NCBI GenBank assembly: GCA_028277445.1
Contig: JANQGG010000038.1
Coordinates: forward strand, 1 to 64,000
Direction of reading: 5' to 3'
Length of the DNA stretch: 64,000 nt
From: Chloroherpetonaceae bacterium
Lineage (GTDB): Bacteria > Bacteroidota > Chlorobiia > Chlorobiales > Chloroherpetonaceae
Shown: positions 3,133 to 15,169 of the stretch, piece after piece
Position numbering within the stretch: position 1 is the stretch's first letter
Layout: every line of letters begins with the position of its first letter
Notes under the pieces: model-generated
Databases searched by the model: none
What the model saw: only the letters and a program-made list of their open reading frames with translations
Told to the model about the DNA's origin: nothing
Translations under genes and position numbers: made by a program

Positions 3133-3759
3133 ATGGAAAAAGAAATCTATTGGTCGCGTTTTGCGGCAGATTTTGAAACTCACAACCACTATGTTGCGGG
3201 TCAGAAAAATATTGCGGCAATTAAAGATACCCTTTCAGAACAAAACCTAACCGGCAAGGTTCTTGAACTGGGTTGCGGGAACGGCACTTATACAAAGGTG
3301 ATTGCTCATAAAGCTCAGGAAGTTTTTGCCACTGATTTTTCCGAGGAAATGGTATCGGTTTCCAAAACAAAGCTTGATTCTCTGAAAAACGTTTGTGTTG
3401 AACAACAAAATTGTTTTTCCCTAACCTATCCTGATTCAAACTTTGATGCTGTTGTTATGGTAAATTTATTACATGTCGTTGAAAACCCTGAAGACGTCAT
3501 CAAAGAATGTAAAAGGGTTTTAAAACAACAAGGAATTTTAATTATTGTGAGTTTTACCACGGAAGGAATGAGCGCTTTAGCAAAATTGGGCTTGATTTAT
3601 CGCTACCTAAAAACATACGGTAAGCCTCCGGCCACTTCACAAAGCCTTGCCCTTGAAAAAACATCTTCGATGGTTACTAACCAAGGCTTTGACGTTTCTG
3701 AAACTTTTTTAACCGGGCATTCATCAAAAGCGATTTTTGTTAAAGCCTTGCTTAAATAA
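3133..3759 (+). CDS. class I SAM-dependent methyltransferase (UbiE/COQ5-like)
   Basis: A 208-residue protein with the class I SAM fold: motif I VLELGCGNGTYTKV, a following acidic strand (VFATDFSEEM), and motif II/post-II with LLHVVENPEDVIKE and RVLKQQGILII. It is unrelated in domain plan to the methyltransferases on either side, so this is not a simple duplication. It is the third gene in the plus-strand run starting with the ABC transporter. The substrate is unknown; small aromatic or metallophore-like acceptors are possible. Confidence 0.82.
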   Translation: MEKEIYWSRFAADFETHNHYVAGQKNIAAIKDTLSEQNLTGKVLELGCGNGTYTKVIAHKAQEVFATDFSEEMVSVSKTKLDSLKNVCVEQQNCFSLTYPDSNFDAVVMVNLLHVVENPEDVIKECKRVLKQQGILIIVSFTTEGMSALAKLGLIYRYLKTYGKPPATSQSLALEKTSSMVTNQGFDVSETFLTGHSSKAIFVKALLK

Positions 3760-3829
3760 GGTAAGATTTAAAACTGATCCCCCAATTTTACCCTTTAATC
3801 ATAATCTAGAATTTTTATCGCATTTAGAT

Positions 3830-3858
3830 TTGGACTTCTCGAATAATTAATTTAGATT
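3830..3858 (+). promoter_or_regulatory. predicted sigma70-type promoter
   Basis: TTGGAC (3830-3835) and TAGATT (3853-3858) are separated by 17 bases and precede the gene at 3894. The -10 element lies inside the operator palindrome at 3851-3867, a layout suited to repression. The paralogous gene at 15286 has the same arrangement (TTGGAT-17-TAGAAT), which supports the call. Confidence 0.55.
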
Positions 3859-3867
3859 AAATCTAAA
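3851..3867. promoter_or_regulatory. DtxR-type operator, best copy
   Basis: TTTAGATTAAATCTAAA is a perfect 8-1-8 palindrome and extends two further bases each way. Related 17-mers of form TTTAGA-N5-TCTAAA occur at 7846, 10372, 12161 and 15248, each in front of an iron- or heme-related unit. I infer that the DtxR protein encoded at 7135-7797 binds them. Confidence 0.65.
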
Positions 3868-3893
3868 TTAACAAACAATTCAAACTCAACGAT

Positions 3894-4253: not shown

Positions 4254-5090
4254 ATGAATAGTACTCCTAAAACAAGCATATCAACAAAACCAATGCTCAA
4301 TGGTGTTCCGGAAACCTTGCTTATTCCTTTGTGGGCAAGATGCGCCGAAACCTCGCATCCGCAGTCAATTATTCAGGATCACAAAGCTTGCGAGCTATTG
4401 GCTGCAATTGATTACAACTTTTCGCAGTTCGAAAACGCTTGGAAAACGCAAGCCGGAGTCGCGATCCGAACGTTAATTTTGGATAAAGCCGTAAATGCCT
4501 TTATCAAGCAACACCCCAATGCTTTAATCATAAACCTTGGCGCAGGTTTGGATACCCGTTTTTTCCGCGTGGATAACTCTCAAGTTGAATGGGTGGATAT
4601 CGACCTACCGGAAGTGATACGTTTAAAAGAAGCATTGATCTCTCAAACCGAACGATATCGGTATATCGCATCATCTATTTTTGACCTAGCATGGGTTGAA
4701 GCGTTTCAGGAAATGAAACGCCCGGTTCTATTTATAGCTGAAGGGGTACTCATGTACTTTCAGCAAGCAATTGTTGCGCAATTTTTATCGGATTTGAGTT
4801 CTAAATTTCCCGAATCTGAAATGCTTTTAGAAATCATATCGCCTTTTGTATCCAAATTTTCAAAATGGCACGATACTGTCAGTAAAACAGAGGCAACATT
4901 TAAATGGGGAATTGAAAATGCTAAAAAGCTCGCGATGCTATGCCCAACTCTTAAAATTTTGGATGCGTGGAACTACCTGGATTATCACCCCGAACGTTGG
5001 CGATGGATTACGATGATGACAAAACTACAGGCCTTAAAACGCATCTTTTCGGCCAGTATTGTGCATGTGCAATTTCAATCCGTTAGATAA
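4254..5090 (+). CDS. TcmP/LCMT-family O-methyltransferase
   Basis: A 278-residue SAM-dependent enzyme of the leucine carboxyl methyltransferase/TcmP family. The diagnostic SAM loop is INLGAGLDTRFF, followed by WVDIDLPEVI and the FIAEGVLMYF segment. Members methylate carboxyl or hydroxyl groups of small molecules such as polyketides. It begins 21 bases after the small Cys/His protein and is followed by an ABM-domain gene. Together with the two methyltransferases upstream it gives three unrelated methyltransferase folds within 3 kb, next to a transporter. Substrate unknown. Confidence 0.82.
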   Translation: MNSTPKTSISTKPMLNGVPETLLIPLWARCAETSHPQSIIQDHKACELLAAIDYNFSQFENAWKTQAGVAIRTLILDKAVNAFIKQHPNALIINLGAGLDTRFFRVDNSQVEWVDIDLPEVIRLKEALISQTERYRYIASSIFDLAWVEAFQEMKRPVLFIAEGVLMYFQQAIVAQFLSDLSSKFPESEMLLEIISPFVSKFSKWHDTVSKTEATFKWGIENAKKLAMLCPTLKILDAWNYLDYHPERWRWITMMTKLQALKRIFSASIVHVQFQSVR

Positions 5091-5469: not shown

Positions 5470-5994
5470 ATGAAAAAAATTGGACTTTTTTGGGGATCGG
5501 ACACCGGTAACACCGAAACCGTTGCCGGAATGATTGCAGAATCTATCGGTGAAGAACTTGTTGATGTTTATGATATTTCGCAATGTTCACCGGAAGATAT
5601 CCTTCAATACGATTACTTGATTTTTGGTATTCCCACCTGGGGTAATGGTGAGTTGCAAAGTGACTGGGAAGACTTTTTCCCAAATCTCTCCGAAATGGAC
5701 TTTTCTGGTAAAACAGTTGCTTTGTTCGGTTTGGGCGATCAGTTCACATACAGCTCCTACTTCTTAGATGCTATGGGCATGCTTCATGACGAAATTGTTC
5801 CACAAGGCGTTAAAATTGTTGGACACTGGCCTACCGAAGGTTATGAATTTGAAGAGTCCAAAGCTATCGTTGATGGCAACTTTGTAGGTCTTGCTATTGA
5901 TCAGGATAATCAGGATGATTTAACGCCGGAACGTGTTCAGCTTTGGGTTGAACAGCTCAATGAACTTGTTCCTGAAATGCAACAGCAGGATTAA
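5470..5994 (+). CDS. fldA: long-chain flavodoxin
   Basis: A 174-residue FMN electron carrier. The phosphate-binding loop GSDTGNTETV is at residues ~9-18, the isoalloxazine Trp is in PTWGNGELQSDW, and FGLGDQFTY follows. An insertion in the last strand gives the long-chain length. Flavodoxins replace ferredoxin in low-potential electron transfer when iron is scarce, which fits the neighbouring DtxR and heme genes. It lies 42 bases after the ABM gene and ends in a strong terminator. Confidence 0.93.
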   Translation: MKKIGLFWGSDTGNTETVAGMIAESIGEELVDVYDISQCSPEDILQYDYLIFGIPTWGNGELQSDWEDFFPNLSEMDFSGKTVALFGLGDQFTYSSYFLDAMGMLHDEIVPQGVKIVGHWPTEGYEFEESKAIVDGNFVGLAIDQDNQDDLTPERVQLWVEQLNELVPEMQQQD

Positions 5995-6478: not shown

Positions 6479-6507
6479 CAGGGAAGCGCTCACTTCCCTG
6501 TTTTTTT
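6479..6507 (+). terminator. intrinsic terminator after ferredoxin
   Basis: CAGGGAAG-CGCTCA-CTTCCCTG followed by seven T residues. It overlaps the last codons of the convergent DUF3793 gene. Confidence 0.82.
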
Positions 6508-7138
6508 AAGCGGCGTGTAATAAAAAATTAGCTTCGCGGCGGGCTTCTTCGTAGCGGCGATGTAAGTTAATGGAAGGACGCGGGTCGCCAAAAACTTGCC
6601 ATCCGCAACAACCGCTGCATGAATCTTTGGTCAGCCCCATGTATCCCCAAACATCTTTTAAAGGATAACCCAATGCCAACCCGATTTCATGTGGAATTCT
6701 ATCGGATGATTTCCACCTGTGGCTAAGCTCATTTAAAAACTCATGTGCTTTTATCCCAATGGTATAGCCAAGTTTTTTATGAAGTTTCTTTTTGGAGGCT
6801 CTGCTAAGTCTGTTGTTCAGCAAGTTTTCATTATAGACGATCAATTTGCACGTGTCGTTTTTACAATGCAATACTTTTAGATCAACGCCCCATAGTTCGC
6901 ATAAAACCCTTGCAAAAGTAGTACATTGATCAAGGGTTAAGTCCATCATCTTATCCTGAATTTTAATCAGCTCACCGGATTTTCTTCCAAACAACACCCG
7001 TGAAACTTGCTCAAAAAGCCAACGTTCAAAACCGGCTTGTTTATGACAGATTTGACTTAATCGTAGCTTCCATTCATGAAATTTTTCGGTTTTTTTTGTT
7101 TTACTCATCTTTTCCTCACATGAATAAAGTTGATTCAT
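6506..7138 (-). CDS. DUF3793 family protein
   Basis: A 210-residue protein of the uncharacterised DUF3793 family, recognised from the C-terminal half with IPHEIGLALGYPLKDVWGY and the Cys-rich CSGCCGW. The family commonly sits near iron-transport and flavodoxin genes. The ATG at 7136-7138 overlaps the stop of the dtxR-type gene by four bases, so translation is probably coupled. A second ATG at 7108 has a better Shine-Dalgarno sequence (GAGGAAAAG) and would shorten it by ten residues. The function is unknown; iron-response association is inferred from context. Confidence 0.78.
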   Translation of the reverse strand: MNQLYSCEEKMSKTKKTEKFHEWKLRLSQICHKQAGFERWLFEQVSRVLFGRKSGELIKIQDKMMDLTLDQCTTFARVLCELWGVDLKVLHCKNDTCKLIVYNENLLNNRLSRASKKKLHKKLGYTIGIKAHEFLNELSHRWKSSDRIPHEIGLALGYPLKDVWGYMGLTKDSCSGCCGWQVFGDPRPSINLHRRYEEARREANFLLHAA

Positions 7139-7797
7139 TTTTCCTGATTTGGTACTACTTCAATACATTCAGCAATTTCCCGTGAAATGGAATGCTTTTT
7201 TTGACCGACTTTTACAACTACTGGGCCGTTAAATGGGGCAATTTCAATTACTTCGCACTTTCGTTCAGGTTTAAATCCATTTTTGTGGATATACTTGACC
7301 TGTTCAATGTCGGCAGTATAGATTTGACTGACTTTTAGCTTTTCTCCTACAAGAGCCTCTGAAAGCGGCTTGGATAGATTGCTTTTGTGAAACCCATTCG
7401 CTCCCGGTATGGGATGGCCGTGCGGATCGTGCTTAGGATAATGCAGCAATTTATCTAATGCGTCAGCCAAACGATCCGAAATCACATGCTCTAACCGGCA
7501 GGCTTCTTCATCTACTTCGTCAATATTATATCCGGCTATTTTCACCAAAAAGAGCTCAATTAAGCGACGTTTCCTTAGCATACCGTAGGCGAGTTGGCGT
7601 CCTTTTTCACTTAAAGCCACGCCTTCTCGCCATTCATGTTCAACAAAGCCCTCTTGGGTAAGCCGTTTCACACGCTCGGAAACGCTGGAAAGGCTTAGGT
7701 TCATTACTTTAGCAATCTCGCTAATCGTAGCGCTTTGGGTGCGCTCTGTCAAGCGATAAATGCTTAAAATGTACATTTCAGTGGTTTCAGAGAGCAT
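7135..7797 (-). CDS. dtxR: DtxR-family iron-dependent repressor
   Basis: A 220-residue metalloregulator with winged helix (1-60), dimerisation domain (~65-140) and a C-terminal SH3/FeoA-like domain (~145-220). Metal-site residues resemble the iron-type DtxR/IdeR and not MntR: Met8 in TTEMY, and Cys100, Glu103 and His104 in EEACRLEHV. The ancillary-site histidines of DtxR appear lost (Arg and Asp at the matching places). It likely represses transcription with Fe2+ bound. The palindrome at 7846-7862, 49 bases upstream, suggests autoregulation. It is co-transcribed with DUF3793. Confidence 0.9.
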   Translation of the reverse strand: MLSETTEMYILSIYRLTERTQSATISEIAKVMNLSLSSVSERVKRLTQEGFVEHEWREGVALSEKGRQLAYGMLRKRRLIELFLVKIAGYNIDEVDEEACRLEHVISDRLADALDKLLHYPKHDPHGHPIPGANGFHKSNLSKPLSEALVGEKLKVSQIYTADIEQVKYIHKNGFKPERKCEVIEIAPFNGPVVVKVGQKKHSISREIAECIEVVPNQEK

Positions 7798-7845
7798 GCT
7801 TAAACATTATCAATTCCTTTTCGCTTGCCTTCAACAAATCCTTTA

Positions 7846-7912: not shown

Positions 7913-10240
7913 TTAGAACTTAATAGCTGTTCCAACAAAGAAAGTTCTTGGACGTGTTGGGCCGTAAATGTAAGCCGGATCACGACCAGCTGTTTTATCA
8001 AAATCGTCCTGGTAGCTGTTAAGGATGTTTTGCATACCAACGCTCAAAGTCAAACCAGATTGGCTATCATTTGAGGTTGCGAAGAGGTAACTGACTTTTG
8101 TATTGAGTTCAAAAAACGGATCTGTTTCTTCCAATACATTCTCTGCTATAAATAATTCGTCACCTCCCTCATGAGGCACTTTCATTGAACCAGTATAAAC
8201 ACCAGATAGCGACACATTTAACTGAGAAGTAAATTGATTGCTTATGGTGAAATACCCATACAAAGAAGGTGTTCTGGTAATTTCATCAGTGAAAATTCCA
8301 TCAATTGGTTCTTGATCCTCTTTATACTTGCCGGATTGGGCAGTAGCACCAACCTGAACCTGAAGGTAAGGTGTCAGGTAGCGGGCTTCCAAAGAGCCAC
8401 CCATAACAGTAGCGCCTGAAGAATTAACACGCTCATAAACCTCTAAATCATCAGTAGAAGCTGCTTCATTAAACTCTTGAGAAAACGCATCATTGAGCTT
8501 GGTGTAAAAACCTTCTAATGTAACACCCCATTCGGAACCAATACTGCTGACAGTATAATCTAAAGATCCGCTTAAACTTACTGAGCGTTCCTCTTTTAAA
8601 TCCTCTGCATTTGTGTAAATCCACCGCACGCCTTCTGCGCTGAGGATATGAAGATCTTCATCAAAGGTTTGAGGAGCACGAAAACCGGTAGCAACGTTAC
8701 CACGGATCTGAAACTCCGAGGTAAGTTTACCAAGAACACTTACTCTTGGATTGATAATCACGTTATCAATCAGGTTGTGATTATCGAGGCGGGCACCGAT
8801 TAACAAGCAAATATTATCGTTGATGTCCCAATCATCCTGAACAAACAACGCTTGCTCGCGGATCACCTGGAAAATTGAACGATCAATGGCCGGCTGGCTA
8901 TCTTCAAGTTCGTTGTATTTGAATTCAGATCCCACGATCAACTCATGCTTACCACCAAAGCCTTCAAAAGCAGTGCTGTATTGAGCGCCAATAACAGCAG
9001 AAAGATCTTCGGAACGGCCATAAGCATTAGCCGCGGCTACAATATCAGTTGTATCTGTACTTCCTAAACCGCCATAATAACTATCACGAAACGTTTGGCG
9101 GTTGGAGATGTAGAGGTTTAATCTTTGTTTGTAATCCTCAGTAAGGTAAAGATTGTAATCCACACTACCATTTAATGACACGTGTTTTGTTCCTTCGGCA
9201 ACATCGGCCTGGTGCATAAATTTATCAAACTTGTTTCCACCACGCCGGTTTTCGTAGCTGACATGGAACTCAGGTTTGATTTTGCTGAATTCACTAATAT
9301 TATAGAAACCGTGCATACCTGCTGAAATATCTTCCAACTCGGATAACTCAGAGAAGTCATCGCCATTGGCATCAAAGGCATTACGATTGCGATAGTTACC
9401 GAATAAGAACATACCTGCGTCCCTGTTGTCAGCAACCACACTGCTTGCAAGACTAATTTGATTATCGGGGATTTTACCATCAATAAATCCGGTGTTTGTG
9501 GCAAACTCAAATGAATTGGTTGTGGGTTCTTTAGTAATAATATTAATTGTTCCGGCAATAGCGTTTCCACCATAAACAGAAGAACCTCCACCACGCATTA
9601 CTTCAACCCGATCAATCATAATACTGGGGAAATGTTCTAAACCATAAACACCTGCCAAGGCGCTGAATACCGGACGACTGTTAACTAAAACCTGAGAATA
9701 TTTTCCTTCCAGCCCATTCATACGAACCTGACTAAAACCACAGTTTTGGCAGTTATTTTCAATTCTAACACCGGGTTGATAGCTCAAACCTTCCAAAAGG
9801 TTTAATGACTGAGTGGCATCTATCATTTTTGCATCCACAACATTAACAATTACCGGTACATCGCGCTTGAATTTCTCAGTTCGCGTACCGGTAACAACAA
9901 TTTGTTTGCTCATAACCGCTGCACCTGAAAGCTCTAATTGGAGATCCAAGGTTTCACCTGCTTTAAGAAAAACAGTTTTTTTCTTAATGTCGTATCCAAC
10001 ATATTGAACCTGTAAAACATACTCACCGGGCTCAACTCCTGAGATGGCAAACAGCCCATCGTCTGTGGTTTGTGCGCCTAAACGAGTACCTAACAAAATT
10101 ACACTGGCCGATTCAATGGGATTCTTTGAGGCTTCATCTATAACCTTGCCTTTTATACTCCCAGCGTCATCAAACGCATGACCAAGAATTGGATTTAATA
10201 AAAAAAACATTAATAAAACATTTAGATACAATAACTTCAT
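7913..10240 (-). CDS. TonB-dependent outer-membrane receptor (heme/iron type)
   Basis: A 775-residue receptor. It has a signal peptide (1-23), a carboxypeptidase-regulatory-like domain (~27-105), a plug domain (~115-240) with RVEVMRGGGSSVYGG, and a 22-strand barrel ending in aromatic Phe. FRAP at 520-523 is followed by His531 and an NAEDL box, an arrangement seen in heme and related receptors. Two Cys (CQNC) in the plug are notable. Expression is probably DtxR-controlled through the box at 10372. The ligand is not proven; heme, another tetrapyrrole or a ferric chelate are candidates. Confidence 0.9.
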   Translation of the reverse strand: MKLLYLNVLLMFFLLNPILGHAFDDAGSIKGKVIDEASKNPIESASVILLGTRLGAQTTDDGLFAISGVEPGEYVLQVQYVGYDIKKKTVFLKAGETLDLQLELSGAAVMSKQIVVTGTRTEKFKRDVPVIVNVVDAKMIDATQSLNLLEGLSYQPGVRIENNCQNCGFSQVRMNGLEGKYSQVLVNSRPVFSALAGVYGLEHFPSIMIDRVEVMRGGGSSVYGGNAIAGTINIITKEPTTNSFEFATNTGFIDGKIPDNQISLASSVVADNRDAGMFLFGNYRNRNAFDANGDDFSELSELEDISAGMHGFYNISEFSKIKPEFHVSYENRRGGNKFDKFMHQADVAEGTKHVSLNGSVDYNLYLTEDYKQRLNLYISNRQTFRDSYYGGLGSTDTTDIVAAANAYGRSEDLSAVIGAQYSTAFEGFGGKHELIVGSEFKYNELEDSQPAIDRSIFQVIREQALFVQDDWDINDNICLLIGARLDNHNLIDNVIINPRVSVLGKLTSEFQIRGNVATGFRAPQTFDEDLHILSAEGVRWIYTNAEDLKEERSVSLSGSLDYTVSSIGSEWGVTLEGFYTKLNDAFSQEFNEAASTDDLEVYERVNSSGATVMGGSLEARYLTPYLQVQVGATAQSGKYKEDQEPIDGIFTDEITRTPSLYGYFTISNQFTSQLNVSLSGVYTGSMKVPHEGGDELFIAENVLEETDPFFELNTKVSYLFATSNDSQSGLTLSVGMQNILNSYQDDFDKTAGRDPAYIYGPTRPRTFFVGTAIKF

Positions 10241-10289: not shown

Positions 10290-10371
10290 TAAATGTTCAA
10301 AAAACAACAGCTTATAATGGTATTCTTATTACGATTATATACTGTTGTTATAATCATTAATTAATAATTTA

Positions 10372-10535: not shown

Positions 10536-11099
10536 TCACGATGCGTAATGCACTGCAAATGCAATCAAAGGCGGCAGAAAGCCTGCCAGTAACAACCACT
10601 TTCCCCGCCCAGATAGTCCACGGCTGCCTTGAAGGATAAACAAACCAGTAAGGCAGATGATGATGAGCATTGCGCCCAGAACATCTGAGGCCCACTTCCA
10701 ACCTTTGATGCTGTTTCGATGCAACAGGTTGGTTTCATAAAAAACATGGCGGCGAGAGAGTTTTTCGTATAATCCGGTCGCCTCGTTTAAATTCAAATGC
10801 AAAGTAGACTTGTTGTAATAGATCTTAAGCTGGTCTTCGGTGGGAAAATCATAAATTTTGTACTCATCTTCATTCACCATTTGACTAAACGCTTTAACCA
10901 AATCCTCTGTAATTTCTGATTTTGTATAGCTTCTCTTGAGCTCGATCTTTTCTTTGGTAATAATAAAATCCGGGTTCCAATCGTCAATATGGTTTAATGC
11001 AATCCCTGAAATGCTATACATTATGATCAAACCCGATAGGAAATATCCAAAATCACGATGAATTATCGTGTTCCACTTGAGTAATTGCTTTTTATTCAT
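10536..11099 (-). CDS. PepSY-associated membrane protein
   Basis: A 187-residue inner-membrane protein with an N-terminal helix (FLSGLIIMYSISGIALNH), a periplasmic middle of ~100 residues and two C-terminal helices. This matches the short PepSY-TM family found with TonB receptors and iron-reduction proteins. Conserved His residues (IIHRDFG, LLHRNSIKG, the final HYA) lie at membrane borders and might bind heme. It starts 2 bases after the chelatase lipoprotein gene, so both are one operon. A role in reducing or handing over iron or heme at the inner membrane is inference. Confidence 0.78.
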   Translation of the reverse strand: MNKKQLLKWNTIIHRDFGYFLSGLIIMYSISGIALNHIDDWNPDFIITKEKIELKRSYTKSEITEDLVKAFSQMVNEDEYKIYDFPTEDQLKIYYNKSTLHLNLNEATGLYEKLSRRHVFYETNLLHRNSIKGWKWASDVLGAMLIIICLTGLFILQGSRGLSGRGKWLLLAGFLPPLIAFAVHYAS

Positions 11100-11101
11100 A
11101 C

Positions 11102-12049
11102 TCAGTTTGATGAATTTTTGGCATTTATTTTCCCAGCGATCTTGTCGGAAATTTTGATAACCCAGCTTTCAACATTTGCATCTGGTAGAATTGCATCTGG
11201 CTTATAGATCACGCGCTGTTTATGATTTTTTACTTTTGCGATGCCACCTCCGATAATGCGAATCTGGAAATTTTCATCATGAGCAACCAAAATTGGAATC
11301 ACAATAGCTTTTTCTTTGCGCTTTAGCACATTTTCAACCGCAACGGTTGTTGAATCCAACTTGTACCGTACAATATGCCCGCACCATCCATACGAATAAT
11401 CTTTAATCCCAACATGATTTGACACATGATTCCCCAGTGTATCCATCAAGGCTGACCATTCTTTGGTATAGGTTTCATCGCCATAAGCTATAAGCGCCAA
11501 CCCTTCGTTTTCAGGATTGCGGGATAATGCTTTGGCACGTCGCAGCACGTTTTTCTGCAAGATATCCGTAAAGTCTAGCAAAGGCGCCAGGTGAGTACGA
11601 GCTTTAGGTGTATAACGCTCAATCTTTTCAAACTTAAGCATTTCCTTAGATTGAGGGTCTTCTTTTTGCCCGATGATGGTGGGAATATCATCAAACGAAT
11701 GAGGACTTACGGTTAGAAAGATCGGAACAATAATGATATCGCTATAATTTTCAGCATCAAATTCTTTAAGCCTGGTGGCAATGGAAGGTTCGTTATATTC
11801 CATAAACGCTGTTTTAATACCCTCAATCTTACCCATCCTTAAAATAGAATCCTTAACACTGGACTCTAAATCCAACAAAGCTTGCCGCCAAGTTTTAGAA
11901 TGTGAGCCATGATTCACAAGCAACAATCCAATTTTTTTATCAGCTTGTACTTTCCCTTTTTGAGTTTGCACGTCGCTACAACCAGCAAATGCAGTTACCA
12001 GAAATAGCAAACACGGAATAAACATTCTGCGAAAAACCCTGTTTTTCAT
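11102..12049 (-). CDS. CbiX-like tetrapyrrole chelatase, exported lipoprotein
   Basis: A 315-residue protein starting at the ATG at 12049, which follows an AAAGGTG ribosome site; a longer reading would need a TTG. A lipobox places Cys24 as the lipidated residue. The next ~110 residues match CbiX/SirB-type chelatases: NHGSH with His47 and [10 protein letters not shown] with His117 correspond to the two catalytic histidines. A second, degenerate half lacks the HGS motif (AYGDE). CbiX enzymes insert Co2+ or Fe2+ into sirohydrochlorin in the cytoplasm, so an exported copy beside a heme receptor suggests metal insertion or removal in the periplasm. Confidence 0.78.
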
Positions 12050-12155
12050 TTTTGCACCTTTTTTGATAATTAATAAAACACCTGCCCCCCTACTCAATTT
12101 TAGAGTTTAATTTATGCTGAAGGCTTTGGATGATTCAAAGATAAAAAATAATTTT

Positions 12156-12182
12156 ATTTATTTCGACTTTGTCTAAATAAAT
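12156..12182. promoter_or_regulatory. shared DtxR-type operator between chelatase and heme-receptor genes
   Basis: Two 12-base arms, ATTTATTTCGAC and GTCTAAATAAAT, match at 11 of 12 positions around TTT. The core 12161-12177, TTTCGACTTTGTCTAAA, has the island N5 spacing. It lies between divergent genes and could control both. Confidence 0.55.
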
Positions 12183-12229
12183 TTTACGTATATATTCAAA
12201 CCGTAAAATTCACCGACAAAGTCACAACA

Positions 12230-14401
12230 ATGATGTTTTTTAAAAAAGCCTTTGTTTTTGTCCTTTTTGGATTTATAAGCGCCACTGAGTTACATGCCTC
12301 AGCAACCGAGGATTCAAAAGGTTTGGGTAATTCAGTGCAAGTGTTTGGAAAAGTGGTTTCAAAAAAATCACAAGAGCCACTCGCCGGTGCAACGGTAACT
12401 TTAGTAGGTACCACGCGTGGCACGATTTCAGATGAGAACGGGGAGTTTTTATTGAAAAATCTCAACCCCCAAAAATACACGCTTCGTGTTACTTACATCG
12501 GTTATAAAACCACTCAAAAACAGATTGATCTCTCCAAATCACAAAAGGATATTCAAACGATTGAATTCGCCCTTCAAAAAGCAGCATTTGATATGGATGC
12601 TATTGTAGTGACTGCTTCGTTGGGTGAAAATATGTTGAAAAACACGCCTCAACTCACCGAAGTTCTTAGCGGTAAGGTTTTACAAACGACAGGTGCGATA
12701 ACCGTTCAAGATGCCTTAGAACAGAATGTCCCGGGAATAGAGTTCTCAGAAGATTCCCATGGCTCAAACATTCAAATGCAAGGGCTTGGCACAAAATATA
12801 TTTTGATCCTGATTGATGGCGAAAGAATGTCTCAAAAAGATCGTGATAACATTGATTTTGAACGGCTAAATGTGGGTCAAATAGAACGAATAGAAGTCAC
12901 AAAGGGCGCAGCATCCTCAATATACGGGTCTAATGCTATTGGCGGGGTCATCAACATTATCACAAAAAAGCCTAAACATGCGTTTGAAGCTAATGGATTC
13001 TACAGAAGATCGGCATACAATGAGCAGGCCATCAATGGTTATGTAGCAACAAAACAAGACCATTTCAGCGCAAGTCTTGGGGCTGACCATAAAAAATCAG
13101 ATGGATACGACCTTACATTGGAAGAACCAAATACGTCAAAAACCCAAGAAAAGTTTGAAGATTACAGCATTACCCCATTTTTCAGTTTCAGGCCTTCGGA
13201 TCAGTTTGAACTTAATCTTAAAGGAAACTACTTCGTACATGAACGCTTTGATGAGCTTTCCACAATTCCGACTCATCCGAAAGATTACAGTTTCACTTTA
13301 AATGCAAATGCCAACTACTACCTTTCTCCCAAGCAGCATTTTTGGATCAGTTGGAATACGGATCAATATGAACAGTACCATATTGAGGAAAGGAAGAATA
13401 ATAATGAGAATCTTGAAGGAATACATCGGTTCAATAACGCTAAATTAATTTCTCACACCCATCTCTCATTGGATCATTCATTTAAAGTTGGTTTAGAATA
13501 CTTAAACGAAAGATTGACCTCCGATAGGGTAGCGGAGGGCAAAAAAACCACCACATCCTGGATAGGGTTTATTTATAACGAATATAAGCCTTTTACTTCG
13601 CTAAGAACATCTGCTGCGCTTCAGGTAAATCAACATTCAACGTTTGGGATGCATGTCTCACCTAGCCTGTCATTGCTGTATCAGGTATTACCGCTTAACA
13701 TACGATTGGGTTACAGCAATGGCTACCGGGCGCCAACCCTTAAAGAACTCTACTTTGAATGGGATCATTTTAGCATGTTTTTTATTAAAGGCAATACTGA
13801 TTTAAAGCCCGAAACCTCACATTATTTCTATTCGTCGGTTGAATACATCACCTCCTCAATGAATCTTTCAGCATCTGTTTACCTGAACCGTCTAAACAAC
13901 ATGATTACTACAGTAACTTCTTTAAATAACGGTCAGCAAACCGAAAATTATCAAAATGTAGCTGACGCTCGTTTGATTGGTTTTAATCTGCAGATTAAAA
14001 GAGAGCTGATCAAACGCTTGACACTAATTGGTGGTTACAGCTACGTGCATTCCGAAGACTTGAATACCGGTTTTCAAATCCCTGGGATCATAACACAATC
14101 AGCCCGCCTGCGTTTGGAATACGGTCAACGGTTCTCTAAAGATTTTGATCTCATTCTGGCATTACAGGGTAAATATAGCAGCGGTAAGCTTTATGAATCT
14201 AAAAATGAGGAAGGCAATGTAGAACAGGAAAAGTACAAGCCATATTGGAATTGGCGTTTTATATCAACGCTTTACCTCTATAAATATTTCAATCTGGCAC
14301 TTGGTGTGGATAACCTGTTTGATTATACCGATACTGATGATTTCTCTACGCTTTCCCCCGGAAGACGCTTCTTTTCAACCATTCGTTACTCTTTTAATTA
14401 A
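12230..14401 (+). CDS. TonB-dependent heme receptor, HmuR-like
   Basis: A 723-residue outer-membrane receptor with a signal peptide, a carboxypeptidase-regulatory-like domain (~38-118), a plug with IERIEVTKGAASSIYGSNAI, and a barrel. YRAP at 499-502, His513 in the next loop and an NTDL box at 522-525 form the FRAP-His-NPDL signature of bacterial heme receptors such as HmuR. It is followed 21 bases later by an HmuY-like lipoprotein gene, the arrangement of the Porphyromonas hmuYR locus but in reverse order. Probably DtxR-controlled through the palindrome at 12156. Confidence 0.9.
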   Translation: MMFFKKAFVFVLFGFISATELHASATEDSKGLGNSVQVFGKVVSKKSQEPLAGATVTLVGTTRGTISDENGEFLLKNLNPQKYTLRVTYIGYKTTQKQIDLSKSQKDIQTIEFALQKAAFDMDAIVVTASLGENMLKNTPQLTEVLSGKVLQTTGAITVQDALEQNVPGIEFSEDSHGSNIQMQGLGTKYILILIDGERMSQKDRDNIDFERLNVGQIERIEVTKGAASSIYGSNAIGGVINIITKKPKHAFEANGFYRRSAYNEQAINGYVATKQDHFSASLGADHKKSDGYDLTLEEPNTSKTQEKFEDYSITPFFSFRPSDQFELNLKGNYFVHERFDELSTIPTHPKDYSFTLNANANYYLSPKQHFWISWNTDQYEQYHIEERKNNNENLEGIHRFNNAKLISHTHLSLDHSFKVGLEYLNERLTSDRVAEGKKTTTSWIGFIYNEYKPFTSLRTSAALQVNQHSTFGMHVSPSLSLLYQVLPLNIRLGYSNGYRAPTLKELYFEWDHFSMFFIKGNTDLKPETSHYFYSSVEYITSSMNLSASVYLNRLNNMITTVTSLNNGQQTENYQNVADARLIGFNLQIKRELIKRLTLIGGYSYVHSEDLNTGFQIPGIITQSARLRLEYGQRFSKDFDLILALQGKYSSGKLYESKNEEGNVEQEKYKPYWNWRFISTLYLYKYFNLALGVDNLFDYTDTDDFSTLSPGRRFFSTIRYSFN

Positions 14402-14422
14402 CCATTCTGTTTAGGAGGACAT

Positions 14423-15046
14423 ATGAAAAAATTATTATTACTTCTTTTAATCGGTCTCTCATCCTTCATCATTGTTGGTTGTGATGATGATGACAATCCA
14501 TCTTCCCAAAATGACAACTCTAAAAGCGCGACCATGCTGATAAATGCCGCCAGCAATGATGACTGGGTGTATTTCTCGTTTGAAAGTGGTGACTCGCTTG
14601 ATGTTACCGATCCAAAAACATCCGATGCTTGGGATTTAGCATTCAAGCGCTACCATTTAGCTACCAATAGCGGCTCCTCAGGAAATGCCAAGGGCGGCGT
14701 ATATAATGCCGGTAAAGTAAGCATGGCTTCGGTAACCGAAGCGCCAACAAGCGGTTACGTTGTAGATGACTCAGTAAGTATCGTTGATCATTCACAAAAT
14801 CCACCGGCAGTTTATAACATGGCAGCAAGCTCAGCGCTTGCAGGCTGGATAGAATTTGATTTGTCACAAATGCCTCCGATCCCTTCCTATTCAGATTCAA
14901 TTTATGTCATCAAAACCGCAAAAGGCAATTATGCTAAAATTCATATCAAAGACTACTATGGCGGCGATGGCACCAAAAGTGGTATGATTGAGTTTGATTA
15001 TGTTTTTCAGCCTGATGGCAGTAGAACCTTCATGGAAAGCAACTAA
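14423..15046 (+). CDS. hmuY: HmuY-family heme-binding lipoprotein
   Basis: A 207-residue lipoprotein with Cys20 as lipidation site after a hydrophobic signal, then an Asp-rich linker. The mature part contains SDAWDLAFKRYHLATNSG, a hallmark of HmuY-like proteins that capture heme at the outer surface and pass it to the receptor. AGGAGG at 14413-14418 precedes the ATG, unusually strong for this window. Heme ligands are not identifiable with certainty; several His and Met candidates are present. It ends 87 bases before a strong terminator. Confidence 0.87.
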   Translation: MKKLLLLLLIGLSSFIIVGCDDDDNPSSQNDNSKSATMLINAASNDDWVYFSFESGDSLDVTDPKTSDAWDLAFKRYHLATNSGSSGNAKGGVYNAGKVSMASVTEAPTSGYVVDDSVSIVDHSQNPPAVYNMAASSALAGWIEFDLSQMPPIPSYSDSIYVIKTAKGNYAKIHIKDYYGGDGTKSGMIEFDYVFQPDGSRTFMESN

Positions 15047-15133: not shown

Positions 15134-15169
15134 AAGCCCTGTAACCTTCCTTACAGGGCTTGTTTTTTT
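15134..15169 (+). terminator. intrinsic terminator after hmuY
   Basis: AAGCCCTGTAA pairs with TTACAGGGCTT around CCTTCC-type loop bases and is followed by TGTTTTTTT. Confidence 0.85.

Follow-up and report, generated by a model that had tools for sequence, protein, structure and literature searches.

An exported chelatase-type protein in a divergent heme-uptake locus

The window analyzed here, a 64,000-nucleotide stretch (positions 1 to 64,000 of the forward strand) of contig JANQGG010000038.1 from a Chloroherpetonaceae bacterium (assembly GCA_028277445.1), holds a divergent locus built around a gene for an exported CbiX/SirB-type class II chelatase lipoprotein (11102-12049, minus strand; 315 residues). 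Two bases downstream on the same strand begins the gene for a PepSY_TM_like_2 membrane protein, a predicted electron-transfer partner (10536-11099, minus strand; 187 residues). On the plus strand lie genes for an HmuR-like TonB-dependent receptor (12230-14401; 723 residues) and an HmuY hemophore lipoprotein (14423-15046; 207 residues). The two arms share a promoter region with a 25-bp dyad, TTTATTTCGACTTTGTCTAAATAAA, at 12157-12181, which has the form of an iron-type operator. An earlier note, made from the letters of this DNA, had proposed such a shared operator, and the dyad bears it out, with zero copies expected in shuffled sequence.

The exported CbiX most likely starts with the ATG at 12049, the 331-residue open reading frame with a TTG start being an over-extension. 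Its Pfam CbiX match (3e-12) covers residues 47-130, the N-terminal half being the only one that Pfam detects; NCBIfam CfbA matches at 7e-17, under its curated cut-off, and a scan for PF02514 (CobN/ChlH-type class I) gave no match, leaving CbiX alone. The earlier note's recognition of a CbiX-like protein with His47 and His117 is upheld by this match and by the invariance of both residues in all 30 aligned sequences, where Glu84 is likewise invariant; aligned to PDB chains, the two histidines coincide with the His pair of CfbA and SirB. The same note took the second half to have lost its histidines, which is right as to the pair, Tyr189-Gly190 standing at the place of His47-Gly48, but it missed W222-C223-G224-H225 (WCGH), invariant across the alignment of 30. 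A half without the pair is nothing unusual, since CbiX-L and CbiK too have it in a single half each (PMC7689651), and its confinement to one half here places the protein with the CbiX-L/SirB type.

The AlphaFold (AF2) model of the protein (pLDDT 87.7, pTM 0.81) and a Foldseek search with it show two fused CbiX-type alpha/beta domains. The search recovered SirB, HemH, DR2241, CfbA and the periplasmic CbiK (CbiK-P) of Desulfovibrio, the kind of structural comparison suggested in the earlier note: the match to SirB 6jv6 has an E-value of 8e-7 and a TM-score of 0.73 on the target, and the N-terminal half matches CfbA with a TM-score of 0.85 on the target and a root-mean-square deviation of 2.0. 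Judged by eye, the N-terminus is hydrophobic and ends in a lipobox, FAGC, with Cys24. A hydrophobic N-terminus with a cysteine at the lipobox position recurs in 28/30 sequences, in agreement with the proposed lipid anchor, and the other two (L012 and L021) have ordinary-looking signal peptides. This predicted export signal argues against cytoplasmic metal insertion into sirohydrochlorin, and the protein is not the biosynthetic enzyme, because a two-domain CbiX of biosynthetic type is encoded separately in this genome (G000:C11).

The PepSY protein matches PF16357 at 2.5e-11 (44 bits against a cut-off of 27), and its His14, His37 and His127 are invariant in an alignment of 22. Its placement in one operon with CbiX stands insofar as the two genes abut, but the gene lies outside the span 11102-15046 first assigned to the locus. 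The assignment of HmuY proved sound, with PF14064 at 2e-34 (119 bits against a cut-off of 27) and nearest PDB entries 8b6a (5e-34) and Porphyromonas gingivalis HmuY 3h8t (1e-24). Its alignment offers no clear histidine counterparts of the axial heme ligands, for which Met133 and Met150 are candidates.

The receptor has the Pfam Plug and barrel domains. The motif YRAP-His-NPDL is that of P. gingivalis HmuR; here YRAP occupies 499-502, His513 follows at the expected distance of ten residues, and GNTDL stands in place of NPDL. The protein is a TonB-dependent receptor that looks HmuR-like in YRAP and His513, the third element is NTDL rather than NPDL, and the TIGR01785 TonB-hemin model scores below its cut-off. 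Naming the ligand from PDB matches was given up, as these came in an ambiguous order: Cir, BtuB, then heme receptors.

A conserved neighborhood in two divergent branches

Close homologues of the window protein, here called family A, occur in 8/101 close genomes; elsewhere in Bacteroidota they are rare, with one carrier among about 269 sampled genomes. The GTDB collection holds 21 loci, to which come eight others, the window included, and two on Persicobacter megaplasmids, making 31 carriers; 28 are testable for the adjoining gene, contig ends cutting at the gene in the remaining three. A redox-type membrane protein lies next to CbiX in all 28. The gene after CbiX on its strand encodes PepSY in 24/28, and in the other four, one well-supported clade, a protein with FMN_bind and Fer4_5 domains. 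The latter is of the flavin mononucleotide (FMN) plus 4Fe-4S type, resembles NosR, RnfG and NapH and is unrelated to PepSY. Two unrelated redox-type membrane proteins thus occupy one slot, which argues for electron supply; PepSY is probably an electron carrier, to judge from its class and from this replacement. A role as membrane iron reductases has been proposed for PepSY proteins, among them those of PF16357 (PMC8238504). In the two Persicobacter species, the FMN_bind/Fer4_5 protein and a TonB receptor form a single open frame on the megaplasmids (L088:8860-12531, 1223 residues; L089:8998-12633, 1211 residues); a signal-like sequence lies inside it (GNAWAQQ in L089).

The earlier note had staked its reading beforehand on co-occurrence with heme-uptake genes in other genomes, and such co-occurrence was found: 15 of the 31 carriers have an HmuY gene at the locus, against a rough chance adjacency of about 0.7% (0.007) per locus that assumes 1.5 HmuY genes per 3.5 Mb. 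Several Bacteroidota have a HmuY-like protein of about 400 residues directly 5' of CbiX (L001:6804-7991, L002:6696-7952, L005:6676-7920), that of L002 combining a Por secretion tail with a weak HmuY match. Chlorobiaceae loci have two CbiX copies flanking PepSY, as well as a receptor and, nearby, genes that by eye are TonB/Exb-like. Both flanking copies keep the His pair and WCGH (L007:310-2977, L067:2609-5234) and may form a heterodimer. FeoB is present in 23/24 genomes. PF01126 heme oxygenase was not found in 22/24; other heme-degrading families were not searched. Among the conserved neighbors of CbiX we recognized no heme permease.

The family A profile also reached exported proteins in 16 further genomes, family B, leaving out G302, whose weak match is an ordinary ferrochelatase and was dropped. 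Ten members were aligned and are homologous to family A over their full length (hhalign 99.5%); PF01903 is matched by those that were scanned. HmuY adjoins in 7/16 genomes, in the order TonB receptor-HmuY-CbiX, and a full-length PepSY_TM lies near CbiX in at least three (L078, L079, L081); copies with no adjoining HmuY (L082-L087) were not counted as support. The second histidine of the N-terminal half is mostly lost and His198 of the C-terminal half is invariant, so the active site of family B, if it has one, would differ from that of family A. Two further kinds of protein were seen: L075 encodes a small CbiX-like protein of 203 residues with a signal-like N-terminus (9172-9783; PF01903 4.7e-12), which has HmuY on one side and a larger exported CbiX on the other, and L080:7236-9008 and L086:7645-9396 encode exported proteins of about 585 residues with weak CbiX similarity and an apparently longer fold repeat, that of L080 adjoining HmuY.

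An iron-type operator

The 25-bp dyad overlaps -35-like hexamers in both directions, promoter matches themselves being no commoner than in shuffles, and the relative L066 has GACTTTGTCTAAATAAA conserved at the corresponding position. The core of the dyad, TTATTTAGAnnnnnTCTAAATAA, is found again upstream of CbiX operons; in eight loci it stands 7-44 bp ahead of the first gene. Allowing up to two mismatches, the core occurs 11 times in 21 loci (285 kb) and zero times in 10 shuffles. The relaxed-dyad consensus was built from three sites (window, L003 and L008), which are therefore not independent. The operator was discarded as a marker for a regulon across the whole genome, since the exact 25-mer has no second copy within three mismatches and it is only the relaxed dyad that is found again. 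In L021 the operator precedes fur-feoAB-cbiX-pepSY-receptor-hmuY in one operon. The recurring dyad looks like the mark of an iron regulon, a putative Fur or DtxR site. A riboswitch search found no cobalamin riboswitch at the CbiX operons. One lies near the L066 locus (3635-3823), well apart from its CbiX operon.

A proposed reductive route to heme iron and its rivals

The genes, their fold, the conserved residues, the conserved neighborhood and the shared operator are directly established, and a hemophore, a receptor, an exported chelatase fold, an electron carrier and FeoB together fit reductive de-chelation. The account we favor, and think rather probable, is an iron-regulated periplasmic module that de-chelates heme reductively to harvest its iron. 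HmuY would catch heme at the cell surface and HmuR would carry it into the periplasm, where the lipid-anchored CbiX is presumed to bind it; the membrane partner, PepSY here and the FMN/4Fe-4S protein in some relatives, may then give electrons that turn ferric into ferrous heme, and CbiX would run the chelatase reaction in reverse, releasing Fe2+ for FeoB and leaving protoporphyrin. The periplasmic location, heme as the substrate, the flow of electrons and the direction of the reaction are what we infer in this scheme. The link to heme is drawn because HmuY is adjacent in 15/31 loci and in the second branch, and iron removal is preferred because the operator is of iron type, FeoAB shares an operon with CbiX in L021, and the partner in the membrane is of the electron-transfer kind. 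Of the two activities that the earlier note had considered, removal of iron from heme and loading of metal into captured tetrapyrroles, the first would fit these features; the second finds no support in an operon with iron-type regulation and no cobalamin riboswitch.

Several points weigh against this account. At the Chlorobiaceae loci the receptor stands without an HmuY, and PF14064 was not found in those genomes. Database scores do not separate HmuR from siderophore or B12 receptors, and a fold search with the PepSY model gave no structural match and was uninformative. The substrate into which known CbiX/SirB enzymes insert metal is sirohydrochlorin rather than protoporphyrin, and they are not known to work in reverse; heme binding and activity are predictions for every member of the family. 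Nor does mutual exclusion argue that the exported CbiX replaces HmuS, the CobN-like de-chelatase of Bacteroides and Porphyromonas: no PF02514/HmuS was found in 17 Bacteroidota/Calditrichota carriers of exported CbiX, but PF02514 is rare anyway (6 of about 269 non-Chlorobiales genomes), and we rejected that argument.

The strongest rival, though we judge it unlikely, is a non-catalytic periplasmic chaperone, in which the chelatase fold takes heme over from the receptor and delivers it to the inner membrane for PepSY or another protein to act on. Class II chelatases do resemble periplasmic binding proteins in fold (PMC12583661), the exported CbiX is lipid-anchored, and the invariant W-C-G-H could be a heme ligand site apart from the His pair. 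A pure binder, however, would not need the full His pair and Glu84, kept in 30/30, and the conserved neighbors include no recognizable heme permease. In a second alternative, which we regard as improbable, the iron would come from a different ferric ligand, either siderophore-like or some other metal-tetrapyrrole; PepSY would be the reductase and CbiX its ligand-binding partner. PepSY has been proposed to act in siderophore iron reduction, often beside TonB receptors (PMC8238504), and the HmuY-free Chlorobiaceae loci would suit this, but the tetrapyrrole-chelatase fold and the adjacent HmuY genes of both branches point to heme. Weaker still is periplasmic metal insertion, with cobalt, nickel or iron loaded into imported tetrapyrroles: the closest characterized relatives (CfbA, SirB, CbiK, CbiX) insert metals and HmuR scores against B12 receptor models too, but the iron-type operator, FeoAB in one operon, the redox partner, the riboswitch result and the separate biosynthetic-type CbiX make it very improbable, and cobalt loading by the exported CbiX is disfavored.

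Other genes and signals in the window

Four genes near the locus had escaped the earlier note: a second TonB-dependent receptor, a DtxR-FeoA regulator, a DUF3793 protein and a flavodoxin. The receptor gene lies downstream of PepSY (7913-10240, minus strand; 775 residues), and its promoter contains a relaxed dyad at 10369 (3 mismatches). Another (4 mismatches) stands at 7843, by the gene for a DtxR-type metal-dependent regulator with a FeoA domain (7135-7797, minus strand), a candidate regulator of the locus. The regulator gene overlaps one for a DUF3793 protein (6506-7138, minus strand; PF12672 7.5e-33); this pair, iron-linked here, also lies beside CbiX in Chlorobiaceae L067 and L070. A flavodoxin gene (5470-5994, plus strand) also adjoins the locus in two Chlorobiaceae genomes; with the DtxR-FeoA regulator it adds to the case for an iron link. 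A further copy of the iron-type dyad, with 2 mismatches, occupies 3848-3870 in the gap before a predicted methyltransferase (4254-5090), and a terminator-like hairpin, a consensus match only, follows HmuY (15134-15161, plus strand).

Relation to known systems and wider meaning

The nearest known counterpart is HmuS of the hmuYRSTUV operon of Bacteroides and Porphyromonas, with which the window locus has in common the HmuY-HmuR context, an exported chelatase homologue and iron regulation (PMC12583661, PMC6460266). HmuS de-chelates in dependence on reduced nicotinamide adenine dinucleotide (NADH) and acts on ferrous heme (EMBO J 2025; PMC12583661), and iron freed from heme in B. fragilis needs FeoAB (PMC6460266); as described, that system requires both a reductant and FeoAB. 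HmuS is, however, a large membrane-anchored CobN-like class I protein, whereas the protein here is a CbiX lipoprotein of class II with 315 residues, its membrane redox partner is a separate protein, and HmuTUV was not recognized at the window locus. With CbiX-L/SirB (5zt7, 6jv6) and CfbA (6m25) it shares the two-lobed class II fold, the N-half His pair and the Glu of the E-x-x-E-P region, but it differs in being an exported lipoprotein of a heme/iron operon, with an iron-type operator and the extra invariant WCGH in its C-terminal half. The periplasmic CbiK of Desulfovibrio vulgaris (2xvz), recovered by the fold search, is likewise an exported class II chelatase, but it belongs to the CbiK family and is distant in sequence. 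PepSY-like iron-reduction clusters share a PF16357/PF03929 membrane protein, a TonB receptor and the link to iron, and the survey describing them treats NosR/NapH-like FMN proteins as a parallel electron route and does not mention a chelatase (PMC8238504).

Among the non-Chlorobiales sampled genomes, HmuY occurs in 118, any PF02514 protein in 6, and exported CbiX of either branch in 17, of which 15 have HmuY somewhere (Fisher p 0.0002, not corrected for kinship). We suggest, at somewhat less than even confidence, that in two or more divergent branches of Bacteroidota/Chlorobiota, both linked to HmuY, class II chelatases left the cytoplasm to serve as reductive heme de-chelatases, and that they would form a second, non-homologous solution to the problem solved by HmuS, one whose membrane electron donor can be exchanged. 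A search of open-access papers turned up none that connects CbiX to HmuY operons; subscription literature lay mostly outside this search, and the novelty is provisional.

For anaerobic extraction of heme iron without heme oxygenase, Bacteroidota have one characterized answer on the periplasmic side, HmuS (2025). If the exported CbiX is active, the study of de-chelation would gain a small soluble enzyme and a dedicated electron donor to go with it, and the naming of such proteins as cobalamin or sirohydrochlorin chelatases would need correcting. Green sulfur bacteria carry their own ferrochelatase homologues and Mg-chelatase, and the window genome, like its relatives, encodes five CobN/BchH-type proteins. 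Activity would show heme scavenging in green sulfur bacteria, and in phototrophic Chlorobi, as speculation, the freed protoporphyrin might be recycled toward bacteriochlorophyll.

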